Source of the DNA: Prochlorococcus marinus str. MIT 1013
GTDB lineage: Bacteria; Cyanobacteriota; Cyanobacteriia; PCC-6307; Cyanobiaceae
DNA: 64,000 bases
Direction: 5' to 3'
Assembly (NCBI RefSeq): GCF_027359395.1
Contig: NZ_CP114778.1
Location: 124,001-188,000, forward strand
In this document: piece after piece, positions 43,532 to 48,718 of the stretch
Layout of the letters: every line of letters starts with the position of its first letter
Position numbering within the stretch: the stretch's first letter is position 1
Program-made: the position numbers and the translations under genes
Notes under the pieces: generated by a model
The model's database searches: none
Seen by the model: the letters and a program-made list of their open reading frames with translations, nothing else
What the model was told of the DNA's origin: nothing

Positions 43532-44290
43532 ATGATAAAGTTGAGACCTTGGAATAATATCAAAATAGATGAATGTAATGAGCCTTTAATTTCTATTCCA
43601 AAATCCATATTTCGTTTAACACCTCATCCTTATATGTCGTTAGGTGCTCCATATTTAACTGGAGCAGATCCATGGGTTTTACGTAGAAGTGTTTTAAATA
43701 GATTGATTCGTGCGCAACAACATCTTTCTGAGATTAATCCACAAGTACAGTTGGCTTTGTTTGATGCTTGGAGACCTATATCTGTCCAAAAATTCATGTT
43801 TAATCACACTATCCAAGAAACTTGCAAGTCGAAGGGGATTGATATTAATAATCTTTCTGTTAATGAAGAGATTAATGATGTAATTGAGGAGGTTGGCCGT
43901 TTCTGGGCAAAACCATCTTCTGATCCTCTTACGCCGCCTCCCCACAGTACAGGTGCTGCTATTGATCTGACACTTGCTGATATGACTAATAAACCATTAG
44001 ATCTAGGTGGAGAAATAGATTTTATCGGACCTGAATCTTGGCCTGACTTTTATAAGAAAGACTCTTTTAAGTTGCTTTTATCAAAGTATCAGGTTTTTCA
44101 GGATAGAAGATCTCTTTTGTTTTCAGTTATGGAACAGGCTGGTTTTGTTCAACACCCAAACGAATGGTGGCATTTTAGCTATGGAGATCAGTTATGGTCT
44201 TGGTTAACTAAGAAAGGTAATGCTATTTATGGAGCTGCACTTGAGGTAAGTAAAGACATTACACTTTTAGATCCAAGTTTAGTCACATGA
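43532..44290 (+). CDS. M15 family D-alanyl-D-alanine dipeptidase (VanX-like)
   Basis: A 252-residue protein with the zinc site of the M15D family: PPHSTGAAIDLTL (SxHxxGxAxD, written here with the His and Asp ligands) and EWWHFSYG (catalytic Glu and the last His ligand). LALFDAWRP is the usual Arg-containing block. VanX-type enzymes split D-Ala-D-Ala; in bacteria without vancomycin resistance they are thought to recycle cell-wall peptides. No signal peptide is seen. The last 64 bases overlap the end of sir on the other strand. Confidence 0.85.
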   Translation: MIKLRPWNNIKIDECNEPLISIPKSIFRLTPHPYMSLGAPYLTGADPWVLRRSVLNRLIRAQQHLSEINPQVQLALFDAWRPISVQKFMFNHTIQETCKSKGIDINNLSVNEEINDVIEEVGRFWAKPSSDPLTPPPHSTGAAIDLTLADMTNKPLDLGGEIDFIGPESWPDFYKKDSFKLLLSKYQVFQDRRSLLFSVMEQAGFVQHPNEWWHFSYGDQLWSWLTKKGNAIYGAALEVSKDITLLDPSLVT

Positions 44291-46371
44291 TCTCCAAGAC
44301 TAGATGAATTTCCAGTATCTTTCCAGCTAAGGAATAAAGGCTCTAATGTCTTCTCTAATTCATTGATAGGCATTTTTTGTAGATATGGAGTTGCCAACCT
44401 TTTTAAATTAGTGCTACCACCAAGCCATAGTTGGTATTGATTTAGACCACTACCAACTAGCGCTAACTCTGCCATATACGGTCGAGCACAACCGTTTGGA
44501 CAGCCTGTAACTCTTACCAATATAGATTTATTAATCTCTAGTTTTTTTAATTGAGTGTTTATTCGCTTCAAGAGCTCTGGTAAAAATCTTTCTGCCTCTG
44601 TCATCGCTAGTCCACATAACGGCAGAGCTGGACAAGCCATTGCATGTCTAGCTATTGGCTCGGGGCTTCCTGGATTATTAAAACCAATATTAATCAGAGC
44701 ATTCTTTATACTGGCTTTTTGATAATTACCAATATTACACAAAAGTAAATCTTGGTTGGGAGTTAAACGCACATCCAAAGCGAATTTTTCAACTATATTT
44801 CTAAGCTCTTTCTTCACCTCTCCATTAAGCCTGCCTGATAATAGTGGTAGTCCAACAAACCATAGTTTCTCAGATTGTTGATGCCAGCCTAAATAGTCTT
44901 CAAGTATTGTATTCCCTTCGTTCCTTAAGGTGCCAATCTTTTTCGTAAAATATTTCGTTGTTAACTGTTTCTTAAACCAATCGACACCCATGTCATGCAA
45001 AACATATTTAAGTCTTGAGTGTCTTCGAGTTTTTCTATCTCCATAATCTCTTTGAAGAGCGAGAATAGATTGTACAAGCTCTAATATGTATTTTCCTTCT
45101 ACAAAACCGATGGGATCTGCTGTCCTCGCAAATGTCGTATCTAAGTTGTGTGTTCTACCCATACCTCCTCCTACATAGACATTACATCCAACTATAGCTC
45201 CTTTTGCATTAGTGAACGTCACTAGACCTATGTCATGAGTTAGAATATCCACAGAGTTATCTCCCGGCACTGTTGTTGCACATTTGAATTTTCTTGGTAA
45301 GTAGGTTGCACCATATAAAGGTTCATTTTTGTCACCACTAAAAACACCAGGATTTCGTTGAAGCTTTCTGTTCTTTTTGACTTCAGAGGTTGGCTTGATA
45401 GCATATTTCATCTCGCCATCAACCCATAAATCAATGTAGGTTTTCTCTGCTTTTTGGGGTGATAAAACATCGGCAATATCATTAGCTAATTTTCTAGCGG
45501 CAGGATAAGATCCTTTTTCGTAGGGGGCCGCTGGAGCCATTACATTTCTATTGACGTCTCCACAAGCCGCGAGGGTAGATCCCATTGATTTCACAATTGT
45601 TCCTATTACTTCTTTAATATTCTCTTTTTTGATTCCATGCATTTGGAAGCATTGACGAGTCGTCGCTCTAAGCGTTTTATTCCCTAGTCGGTCAGAGAGA
45701 TCATCTAATGCCACAAATAGGGGACCAGGGACCAAACCAGCTGGATTTCTTAGCCTCAGCATCATTTGCCAATCTTTACCTGTGCCGCCTCTTTTTCTAT
45801 GTTCTCGATCATCTTGTTGATAACTACCATGGAATTTTAAAAGTTGTACTGCGTCGTTTGTAAAGTGATCGCTGTCGTTTAATAATTCACTTTGTAGGGG
45901 TTCATTTAAGTAATTACTATCAGCTTTAAATTGTTCAAATTTCGATTTAGGAGAATTATTAGCTATGCAAGGCGATGGAATAGTCTTTTCTATTTCTTCA
46001 ACATTTGGACTTCTATTTTCCTCGAAATTCATCAGAGCTTCTATAGCTGCATTACTAAATCCAGCATCTTTCAAGTCTTTTTCAATGTTTTTTGGAGATT
46101 CTTTTGAATTACTATTTTTAATAGCCTCTATTCTTATTCCCTTTGGTAAGGATTTGTTGATCTGTTTGGTCTCTTCTTCTCTGAGCTTTTCATCGAACTT
46201 TTGTTGAATAGCTATTTCTGCTGAGCTTATGTTTTCTTCTGCTTCTTCTTTAGTATTGCCTATTTTTTTTACTACATCACATGTTCCAAAAGCATCCCTT
46301 AATTTACCCCTCGGTACAGCAACCCTGAGGTAAAAACCCGATCTTCCTGGTATTTTTATGATCTTAGGCAC
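44227..46371 (-). CDS. sir: Ferredoxin-sulfite reductase with an integrase-arm-like N-terminal extension
   Basis: A 714-residue frame. From about residue 143 (SKFEQFKADSNYLNEPLQSE) it is a normal sulfite reductase, with FHGSYQQDDREHR, RLRNPAGLVPG and the siroheme/4Fe-4S cysteines C580, C586, C624, C628 (CPALPLC, TGCPNGC). It reduces sulfite to sulfide with ferredoxin. Residues 1-70 are not from this family: PGRSGFYLRVAVPRGKLRDAFG and VVKKIGNTKEEAEENISSA resemble the arm-DNA-binding domain of tyrosine recombinases. The GTG at 46371 opens the frame, with a stop just upstream. A real sir start may be internal (ATG at codon 114, or TTG/GTG later). The 3' end overlaps the M15 gene by 64 bases. Confidence 0.88.
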   Translation of the reverse strand: MPKIIKIPGRSGFYLRVAVPRGKLRDAFGTCDVVKKIGNTKEEAEENISSAEIAIQQKFDEKLREEETKQINKSLPKGIRIEAIKNSNSKESPKNIEKDLKDAGFSNAAIEALMNFEENRSPNVEEIEKTIPSPCIANNSPKSKFEQFKADSNYLNEPLQSELLNDSDHFTNDAVQLLKFHGSYQQDDREHRKRGGTGKDWQMMLRLRNPAGLVPGPLFVALDDLSDRLGNKTLRATTRQCFQMHGIKKENIKEVIGTIVKSMGSTLAACGDVNRNVMAPAAPYEKGSYPAARKLANDIADVLSPQKAEKTYIDLWVDGEMKYAIKPTSEVKKNRKLQRNPGVFSGDKNEPLYGATYLPRKFKCATTVPGDNSVDILTHDIGLVTFTNAKGAIVGCNVYVGGGMGRTHNLDTTFARTADPIGFVEGKYILELVQSILALQRDYGDRKTRRHSRLKYVLHDMGVDWFKKQLTTKYFTKKIGTLRNEGNTILEDYLGWHQQSEKLWFVGLPLLSGRLNGEVKKELRNIVEKFALDVRLTPNQDLLLCNIGNYQKASIKNALINIGFNNPGSPEPIARHAMACPALPLCGLAMTEAERFLPELLKRINTQLKKLEINKSILVRVTGCPNGCARPYMAELALVGSGLNQYQLWLGGSTNLKRLATPYLQKMPINELEKTLEPLFLSWKDTGNSSSLGDHVTKLGSKSVMSLLTSSAAP

Positions 46372-46397
46372 TGGTACCTACACTGGTACCTACACTG
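46369..46397. repeat. 12-bp tandem repeat at the 5' end of the sir frame
   Basis: CACTGGTACCTA occurs at 46369-46380 and 46381-46392, then CACTG at 46393-46397: about 2.4 copies. It contains the self-complementary GGTACC. It lies directly at the GTG start of the long sir frame. It may be a protein-binding site (for example a promoter operator or recombinase arm sites) or a simple slippage repeat. Confidence 0.7.
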
Positions 46398-46552
46398 TAT
46401 CATTTTTCGTGTTGCTTAGTGCCTAATTGTTCAAATGAAACCATGAGTGAACAAATATCCATTCATTGAATATAAAATTTTTCCTAGGACACAGAATGTG
46501 GAAGTAATTCAAATTAAGATCTAATCTTATTTAAGAACATAAGGAAATCTTT

Positions 46553-48718
46553 TTGTCTACTTACCTTTTAGAAATCGGCACTGAGGAACTACCAGCTGAT
46601 TTGGCTGAATCTGTTATTTCGCAGCTTGAGTTAAATGTAAATAACGACTTGAATTCTTCTCAAATAAAATTTAGTGAAATAAGAGTTACTACTACTCCTA
46701 GAAGAATTGCATTAACGATTGAAGGGATTGCTCCTTTTTCTGAAGATAATATTTTAGAACGAAAAGGTCCTCCTGTTTCTCAAGCTTTTCATGATGGAGA
46801 ACCTACAAAAGCAGCAATTGGTTTTGCTAGAAGATATGACGTTCCTCCTGAAAAATTAGAGGTTCGAGAAACGCCAAAGGGTTCATTTGTTTTCGCTAAA
46901 TTAATTGAGAAAGGCAAGCCCGTTGCGAGTTTGTTGGCTGACTATTTACCTGGATGGATCAGCAAAATTCAAGGAAGAAGGTTTATGAGATGGGGCAAAG
47001 GTGATTTTCGCTTTTCTAGACCTATCCGTTGGATTGTTTCTTTGATTGATTCAGAGGTTTTACCTTTTAGAATTTTAGGGTGCGATCCAGAAATTAAAAT
47101 TGGTAATATCTCAAGACCACATAGGTTGCATGGCTCAACATTAGAGATAAAGAATGCGAAAACTTATTTTGATCAATTGGAGGAGGTCGGAGTAATAGTT
47201 GACAGAAATAGTCGCCTTTTAAATATCAATGATTTAGTTCTTAATCACGAAACAAATAAAAAAGTTAAGCCTGATCTGACGCAACCCCTTTTAAATGAGC
47301 TGACGGATTTAGTTGAGTCTCCTTTACTTGTGACTGGGAGTTTTGATGAATCTTTCCTAGATTTACCTCCAGAGGTGTTGTCCACAGTGATGAAGGTTCA
47401 TCAAAGGTACATACCTTTATATAACAAATTAAATATTGAGTTTGATCCATTATCACTAGACTCAAGAAATATTTTACTTCCTAGTTTTTTGTGTATTAGT
47501 AATGGATTATCTTTGGCAAAAGAAAATATTATTTTAGGTAATGAAAAAGTATTAAAGGCAAGGTTTTCTGATGCATCATTTTTCATAAAGTCAGATCTAT
47601 TAATTAATAGCTCTTCACGTATTAATAAATTAAAAGATGTAACTTTTGCTGAAGGATTAGGTTCTTTATATGAGCGAGTAAATAGGATAGAATGGCTTAC
47701 TAAATTATTGACATCAAAACTTAAATTTGATAAAGAGGATATTGAGAAATCTGTGAGAGTTGCACATTTTTCCAAGCATGATTTAGTTAGCAATATGGTT
47801 GGCGAGTTTCCAGAATTACAAGGAACTATTGGATCTAAATACTTACTTCATGAGGGTGAATCCAGAGATGTATGCCTGGGTGTTTTGGAACATTACAAAC
47901 CCAAAGGAACTTCTGACTCTCTCCCATCAAACGACCTTGGTAATGCGGTATCATTAGCTGAACGTTTTGAGTTGCTTTTCAGTATCTATGCTAAGGGAGA
48001 AAGACCTTCTGGCTCGTCTGATCCATATGCCCTGCGAAGAGCTGCTAATGGAATATTATTGATTTTATGGAATAAAGATTGGCAATTAAATATTAATGAA
48101 ATACAAAATGATTCACTAAGTTTTTGGCAGCAACTTTTCCCTTCTCTCCCTTTTGAAATAAGTTGTCTTTCTAGTGAGTTAAAGGAATTCTTTCGTCAAA
48201 GAATTATTAGTTTATTAGAAGAGAAAAATATTGACTTTGATATTATTCAGGCAATTGCAGGAGATACAACTTCAACATCAAAATTATTGGATGATCCAAC
48301 TGACGTTAATTTTCGATCTTCATTATTAATGGAAATGAGGAAAAATAATACACTTAATTTGTTGCAAGCTGTAGTAACTCGAGCCTCTAAGTTGGCAGCT
48401 AAAAGTTCTATCCCTAAAGACGTGATAGATCCTTCAGGTTTTGTAAATAAATCACTATTTGAGAAGGATTGTGAAATCGAAATGTTTAATGTTTTGGAGA
48501 AATTAAAACCTCTAGCTATAAATTGTGATCGTGTTAAATATAAATTATTAGCTGATGGTCTAGTCTCAAGTGCTGAAACTTTAGCCAACTTTTTTGATGG
48601 AGAAGGAAGTGTAATGGTTATGACTGATGATATTAATCTAAGAAATAACAGACTAAATCTACTGACAATCCTTAGAAATCAATCTTTGAAGATTGCCGAT
48701 TTCAGCAAGCTTAGTTAA
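46553..48718 (+). CDS. glyS: Glycyl-tRNA synthetase beta subunit
   Basis: A 721-residue protein. TYLLEIGTEELPADLA, KGPPVSQAF, FMRWGKGDFRFSRPIRWIV, LVESPLLVTGSFDESFLDLP and RPSGSSDPYALRRAANGILL mark the beta subunit of the heterotetrameric enzyme. The alpha subunit (glyQ) is not in this window. The start is TTG, preceded by AAGGAAA (46541-46547), and the usual N-terminus follows. It converges on chlP. Confidence 0.96.
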   Translation: MSTYLLEIGTEELPADLAESVISQLELNVNNDLNSSQIKFSEIRVTTTPRRIALTIEGIAPFSEDNILERKGPPVSQAFHDGEPTKAAIGFARRYDVPPEKLEVRETPKGSFVFAKLIEKGKPVASLLADYLPGWISKIQGRRFMRWGKGDFRFSRPIRWIVSLIDSEVLPFRILGCDPEIKIGNISRPHRLHGSTLEIKNAKTYFDQLEEVGVIVDRNSRLLNINDLVLNHETNKKVKPDLTQPLLNELTDLVESPLLVTGSFDESFLDLPPEVLSTVMKVHQRYIPLYNKLNIEFDPLSLDSRNILLPSFLCISNGLSLAKENIILGNEKVLKARFSDASFFIKSDLLINSSSRINKLKDVTFAEGLGSLYERVNRIEWLTKLLTSKLKFDKEDIEKSVRVAHFSKHDLVSNMVGEFPELQGTIGSKYLLHEGESRDVCLGVLEHYKPKGTSDSLPSNDLGNAVSLAERFELLFSIYAKGERPSGSSDPYALRRAANGILLILWNKDWQLNINEIQNDSLSFWQQLFPSLPFEISCLSSELKEFFRQRIISLLEEKNIDFDIIQAIAGDTTSTSKLLDDPTDVNFRSSLLMEMRKNNTLNLLQAVVTRASKLAAKSSIPKDVIDPSGFVNKSLFEKDCEIEMFNVLEKLKPLAINCDRVKYKLLADGLVSSAETLANFFDGEGSVMVMTDDINLRNNRLNLLTILRNQSLKIADFSKLS

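Follow-up and report, generated by a model that had tools for sequence, protein, structure and literature searches.

Self-regulating metabolic enzymes are already known, and PutA of E. coli, Salmonella, and P. putida offers the closest working analogue of the gene examined here. According to PMC5879082, PutA carries an N-terminal DNA-binding domain, and its operators lie between its own gene and a divergent one. Plant SiR/DCP68 provides another point of comparison, as a ferredoxin-type sulfite reductase that compacts plastid DNA; the available part of its description (PMC4154389) does not mention an integrase-type N-terminal domain. Two further systems for comparison are the unfused Sir proteins of other cyanobacteria and the tyrosine integrases with a DUF6538-like N-terminus from the same cyanobacterial family (such as L018/L120, L016, and L024/L124), in which an N-terminal domain of about 65 residues is followed by a catalytic Phage_integrase domain, in most cases with a SAM-like domain before it.

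The locus lies in a window of 64,000 nucleotides from Prochlorococcus marinus str. MIT 1013, corresponding to positions 124001-188000 of a single 2,046,712-base contig. Here, sir encodes an essential enzyme, a sulfite reductase with a homologous integrase-type N-terminal domain, whereas the SAM-like and catalytic domains are both absent and sulfite reductase takes their place. The architecture fits that of PutA, as an analogy for which no homology is claimed. PutA relies on a ribbon-helix-helix domain, with proline as its signal, whereas sir has an integrase-type domain; the divergent neighbour of PutA, putP, is functionally related, whereas that of sir is a gene that we take to be glyS. To our knowledge, glyS is not linked to sulfite reduction. 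The plant nucleoid enzyme, in which no such domain is mentioned, is likewise related to the Prochlorococcus sir by analogy only.

The explanation that we favour, at a probability of about 60%, is that a captured integrase module would turn the sulfite reductase into an autorepressor, a reading that joins origin and mechanism. We give even odds to the more specific proposition that the enzyme took over a whole mobile-element cassette, comprising the integrase promoter, the arm-type repeats, and the domain that reads them, and that recombination sites became an operator. Among the listed results of searches in the open-access (PMC) literature, which extended to domesticated tyrosine recombinase domains on metabolic enzymes, no paper was described as reporting this integrase-domain/sulfite reductase fusion. 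The features of the locus are collected in Table 1.

Table 1. Features of the fused sir locus, in window coordinates
Feature	Position	Strand	Evidence or remark
Fused sir gene	44227..46371	-	714-codon frame; start codon GTG (46371)
Sulfite reductase core (ferredoxin-type), codons 144-714	44230..45942	-	NCBIfam/Pfam matches; cysteine-pair motifs CPALPLC and CPNGC
Linker with helical segment, about codons 67-131	45979..46173	-	dN/dS; no significant integrase match
Integrase-type N-terminal (arm-binding-like) domain, codons 2-66	46174..46368	-	Profile match in both directions, dN/dS, AF2
Repeat unit 2, TGTAGGTACC	46373..46382	-	A single base lies between it and the start codon
Repeat unit 1, TGTAGGTACC, arm-type-like site, proposed operator	46385..46394	-	
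Putative -10 box, TACAGT	46394..46399	-	Shares its last T with the first position of unit 1
glyS-like gene (presumed name), divergent neighbour	46553..48718	+	Also adjoins sir in unfused relatives

The sulfite reductase portion is readily recognised. The NCBIfam models for sulfite reductase align only from residues 135, 139, and 146 of the 714-codon frame onward, in agreement with the original prediction that the match starts only at about codon 143. The protein scores 744.7 bits against NF010029, above the cut-off of 457, and 724.5 bits over 570 positions against TIGR02042 (sir), just under the cut-off of 731.5. Residues C579, C585, C623, and C627 (counted from residue 2), presumably the cluster and siroheme cysteines, are invariant in 18 rows. 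Alignments A3 and A4 each consist of the window and 17/18 loci. A Pfam scan of the 714-aa protein gave no match to PF00589 (Phage_integrase); sir is not an integrase.

The first 66 codons have a different affinity. A profile built from nine related cyanobacterial integrase N-termini, without any sir row (A2), was searched in 399 genomes of the order and matched the sir N-terminus at 68.1 bits (E 1.2e-18) over profile positions 3-66. The genome that contains the window gave no other match to this profile up to an E-value of 0.01. The reverse profile, made from 30 sir N-termini, ranked 20/20 integrase rows (six of them near-copies; E 1.3e-17 to 0.0019) ahead of all 515 decoy frames, the best of which reached E 0.52; one more frame, the 516th, is that of sir. 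The similarity spans about codons 2-66, and six A2-invariant residues (R, G, Y, P, K, and A) are retained in sir. On these profile comparisons, the sir N-terminal domain is homologous to integrase N-termini, as had been proposed for codons 1-70. Codons 66-125 were also considered as integrase-derived; L018 and L020 look alike there by eye, but a profile of the segment scores integrases no better than decoys, which weakens this extension of the homology.

Searches for recombinase domains in the N-terminus, as originally advised, thus succeeded with the purpose-built profile and failed with curated libraries, since residues 1-144 matched only unrelated Pfam, PHROGs, and NCBIfam models, and these weakly (best E 0.015). 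PF20172 (DUF6538) did not match these residues at E up to 10, within HMMER's filters. Among eight integrases scanned with the same model, L016, L018, L025, and L026 matched below the gathering score and the other four gave no match. PDB sequence searches were without significant result for both the 80-aa sir N-terminus and the integrase profile.

The arm-binding domain of tyrosine recombinases consists of a three-stranded sheet packed on a helix, and the AF2 model of the sir N-terminus predicts a strand-strand-helix-strand-helix order that would suit such a domain. Strands are predicted at residues 2-4, 12-17, and 31-37 and helices at 22-27, 40-45, and 47-73, with pLDDT of 81-89 by 10-residue block over residues 1-60. 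Structural searches, however, gave no significant match, the best Foldseek hit having E 2.3. With VIA-align, the best hit was a ribosomal chain (Z 4.0), and 3rmp (P4-like integrases, attP) came sixth at Z 3.3 among unrelated rows. The full-length AF2 model had a mean pLDDT of 41.1 and was left unused.

One detail distinguishes the sir domains from their integrase relatives. A one-residue insertion within PRG[KR]LR occurs in sir and is absent from all nine aligned integrases, a difference that counts against the favoured reading. This insertion, at codons 20-25 of sir (PRGKLR, in 45940-46371), is common to the window gene and to the sir of G042, a genome of another genus, and its glycine is invariant in 18 rows of the genus. 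Judged from the alignment, the insertion is a mark of common origin; it possibly also reflects a changed DNA contact.

The distribution of the fusion is narrow. The 144-residue N-terminus was matched in 21 of 201 family genomes. In ten same-genus genomes and in G042, the match covers 142-144 residues of frames of 716-750 aa. The other ten family genomes match parts of residues 2-129, mostly about 3-65, with eight matches in frames of 430-466 aa and two in short frames (111 and 141 aa); the same-genus genome G086 has a second match in a 424-aa frame. All eight separate frames that were scanned match PF00589, six above its cut-off. A sir core was found in 189 of the 201 family genomes, 11 of which carry the extension. 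Within the genus (41 genomes), the sir start is assembled in 30 and fused in 30/30. In 29 of these genomes the fused frame is complete, 716-750 aa long, and uninterrupted by stops, and in G207 the gene is split over two contigs. The other 11 have no assembled sir start (no match, a 3' piece only, or a nitrite-reductase-like paralogue only). The extension is hence clade-wide, yet it retains its recombinase similarity, contrary to the outcome that the original prediction had named as refuting, an equal extension elsewhere lacking that similarity. Some of the L028-L045 records represent the same genomes as the G handles and were kept out of all counts.

In a tree of 49 Sir cores, composed of the 30 fused rows and 19 unfused ones (drawn from 178 family genomes in which a core match but no fusion was found), the fused rows form one clade (support 100/98), requiring a single change of state. 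Three unfused rows from another genus are its sister, with weaker support (91/83). The unfused proteins have the same core (62-72% identity among the rows listed) and the same divergent glyS, in 19/19 loci inspected, but give no arm-domain match. Their distance from core codon 143 to glyS is 154-192 bp, against 601-628 bp in fused loci of the genus and 642 bp in G042, which indicates a gain of about 435 bp in place. This is approximately the size of the N-terminal module together with its repeats.

In a sample of 386 genomes of the phylum, the integrase profile matched seven, all of them members of this family. Of 23 same-genus genomes with an A2 match, 22 have the domain in sir only and G086 has it also in an integrase. 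That separate integrase (L026/L119, at G086:C1:130033) has an N-terminus of this type and is accompanied by TGGTAGGACC repeats of its own. Donor searches, which reach close relatives only, gave no match for the 80-aa sir N-terminus in phage records, and viral contigs held nothing related to the 144-aa N-terminus; at the same reach, integrases L018 and L126 had no viral relative. Twelve viral contigs contain a GGTACC tandem, and none has an integrase-like frame after the site.

Conservation of the domain bears directly on whether it is a functional part of the enzyme. dN/dS was estimated by the Nei-Gojobori method on a set of 29 genus sir genes plus L086. Among the 29 genes of the genus, it was 0.062 for codons 2-65, 0.161 for codons 66-122, 0.233 for codons 123-143, and 0.081 for the core (codons 144-714). 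Compared with G042, where synonymous sites are near saturation, the values were 0.098 for the arm segment, 0.091 for the core, 0.57 for the helical segment, and 0.24 for the linker. From these substitution patterns we conclude that constraint on the first domain equals that on the catalytic core, and that the following segment is less constrained. Length variants (A, AT, or ATT) sit between unit 2 and the start codon, outside the reading frame, and sir frames of other length (712 or 715 codons) differ by whole codons. The start codon is TTG in 27/29 members of the genus and GTG in 2/29. Together with the low dN/dS of the arm segment, these start codons and frame-sparing variants indicate that the protein is translated from about this start.

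The original prediction had offered two alternatives, a decayed integrase joined to sir in frame and a two-function or DNA-binding sulfite reductase. Purifying selection on the domain and the absence of stops in 29/29 full-length frames contradict the first, and the second appears, on these sequence data, to be the better supported. A related possibility, that a fragment fused by chance has been tolerated as a neutral N-terminal tail, would agree with a single clade, with a gain in place, and with the loose constraint on the helical segment relative to G042. Nevertheless, an arm segment under tighter constraint than the core, in frames that are free of stops and vary only by whole codons, makes such a relic highly improbable.

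Directly before the start codon lies the DNA element to which the domain may bind. The GGTACC repeat noted at the start of the frame was confirmed as two tandem 12-mers at 46369-46392. Each 10-nt unit reads TGTAGGTACC in 28/29 members of the genus and TGTTGGTACC in the remaining member, which is not the same genome for the two units. Nine of ten positions per unit are thus fixed across 29 genomes, and the variable position is the same in both units; G042 has TGTTGGTACC twice. Mean pairwise difference per site is 0.0069 in each unit, compared with 0.277 in the 2-nt spacer, a 40-fold difference, and 0.241 in a 30-nt upstream stretch. The ten bases that precede the box differ by 0.152 per site, and the five that precede unit 1 by 0.028. 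No tandem 10-mer of at least 9/10 identity occurs within 60 nt of the first start codon in the 39 other window ORFs (mechanical ORFs of at least 150 aa, the fortieth being sir). Likewise, 0/13 unfused sir genes have a tandem repeat at their start (13 of the 19, the other six not being parsed).

Constraint of this kind may have a source other than DNA binding by Sir. The domain could be kept for folding, oligomerisation, or partner contact off the DNA, with the repeats serving as promoter and ribosome-binding sequence. Purifying selection is silent on which function was retained, and the repeat partly overlaps both the likely -10 box and an AGG within unit 2 that is a possible ribosome-binding site, so that conservation of unit 2 may be partly translational. 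We nonetheless regard this reading as unlikely. Promoter and ribosome-binding functions alone do not need two identical 10-mers, and the spacer varies while the units are fixed and share their variable position. Moreover, both units persist in G042, beyond the genus.

The repeat pair is also singular in its genomic placement. The pattern GGTACC-N4..12-GGTACC occurs at exactly one place, always the sir start, in 30 of the 41 genus genomes, and the 11 genomes lacking it are those without an assembled sir start. A fuller pattern, with two mismatches allowed, matched 15 of the 201 family genomes, namely the ten genus genomes, G042, and four others; in one of the latter, G156, one of two matches lies at an integrase start. 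This uniqueness weighs against a general nucleoid role, in which the domain would let sulfite reductase bind the chromosome broadly, as plant SiR/DCP68 does. The predicted pI of 9.25 for the arm segment and 9.34 for the core, together with plastid DNA compaction by the plant enzyme, would suit such a role. The domain, however, accompanies sir in few genomes of the family (the 11 of 189 given above). We also know of no recombinase domain in plant SiR, and consider broad chromosome binding quite improbable.

Autorepression by Sir itself, the favoured reading, draws further on the position of the repeats. The sir box is TACAGT in 27/29 genomes, TACACT and TATAGT in one genome each, and TAAACT in G042, and would represent a -10 promoter box by its sequence. 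The gap between unit 2 and the start codon measures one base in 23/29 genomes and two or three bases in the others. This close spacing is compatible with autoregulation of another kind, either in translation, with the RNA leader bound, or by activation, with RNA polymerase positioned by the protein. Both variants seem improbable to us, as the position of the TAnnnT box points to the promoter and integrase arm domains bind double-stranded DNA.

The same layout is common to many integrase starts. Tandem 10-mers of at least 9/10 identity occur within 60 nt upstream of the domain, measured from the first profile-matched residue (the start codon or a few codons later), in 14/18 integrase loci, or 9/13 when six near-copies are counted once, where distinct integrases denote different loci, several of them related. 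L121, L122, L123, and L127 have no tandem repeat, although L127 has one unit, and the integrase of G156 (L024/L124) has three TGTGGGTACC units before its ATG. Repeat sequences vary from integrase to integrase. In 9/13 integrase rows (8/12 without a near-copy) and in 4/4 sir rows examined out of 30, the final T of a TAnnnT box coincides with the first base of unit 1; L119, L120, L124, and L125 have no such box at unit 1. In the remainder of these stretches, a window of six positions contains TAnnnT at 202/1778 positions (11%), from which about 2% would be expected for one exact offset. The integrase rows in this comparison were those with at least one repeat unit. L121-L123 were excluded because they have no repeats, and L130-L133 because they are near-copies. 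L129 closely duplicates L128, and the repeat of L149 is imperfect. The first base of unit 1 was set by hand, and in L134 and L147 the strict repeat begins one base later. The recurrent arrangement suggests that many such cyanobacterial integrases may autoregulate through repeats at their own -10 box.

If the repeats are integrase arm-type sites, as we infer, domain and repeat might be expected to vary together. Similarity in protein and in repeat was correlated across 12 rows with hand-picked units (Mantel r 0.53, p 0.0015); values were r 0.35 and p 0.07 for a less redundant set of nine rows, and r 0.34 and p 0.09 for the eight integrases alone. The integrase nearest to sir is L120 in protein and L124 in repeat. 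The correspondence has the right direction, weakens with the redundant rows taken out, and is only suggestive.

According to the favoured reading, the event would be placed in the common ancestor of this Prochlorococcus genus and one neighbouring genus. There, the 5' end of an integrase gene, with its -10 box, tandem repeats, start, and N-terminal domain, would have been joined in frame to sir in the sir-glyS intergenic region, and the domain would have been retained as a working part of the sulfite reductase. It would bind the two units, which extend from the last base of the -10-like box and stop a single base short of the start codon. When occupied by the protein, they would hide the transcription start and block transcription of sir, so that more enzyme would give less transcript. 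The parent integrase probably repressed its own gene likewise.

Such a circuit would add to what PutA illustrates, in that both halves, the protein domain and the DNA site, seem to derive from one integrase gene, and the origin of the regulatory loop is visible for that reason. It would also mean that the arm domain of a tyrosine integrase can work outside recombination. This ocean cyanobacterium, streamlined and poor in regulators, would thereby gain a one-gene feedback on sulfur reduction.

Several minor observations concern the surroundings of these genes. Placement of the integrases at tRNA genes was considered and became less likely, as ARAGORN found none in 16/16 loci given (flanks up to about 1.5 kb; L020 and L123 denote a single place). 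For the same reason, the label 'tycheposon' was not adopted for them (compare PMC10872708). Eight integrase loci (L119, L124, L125, L126, L127, L128, L129, and L134) share a block CCGT...CC...CGACCT about 85-130 nt upstream of the integrase start, which may mark where the element attaches or where an RNA gene has its 3' end; Rfam searches of L119, L126, L127, L128, and L134 returned nothing. In the window, a convergent ORF at 43532-44290, which its motifs lead us to take for a D-Ala-D-Ala dipeptidase-like gene, overlaps the 3' end of sir by 64 bp (44227-44290). On the opposite side, a block nearer glyS in the sir-glyS intergenic region, at about 46480-46530, is also highly conserved across the 29 genomes and is perhaps the glyS promoter or leader.
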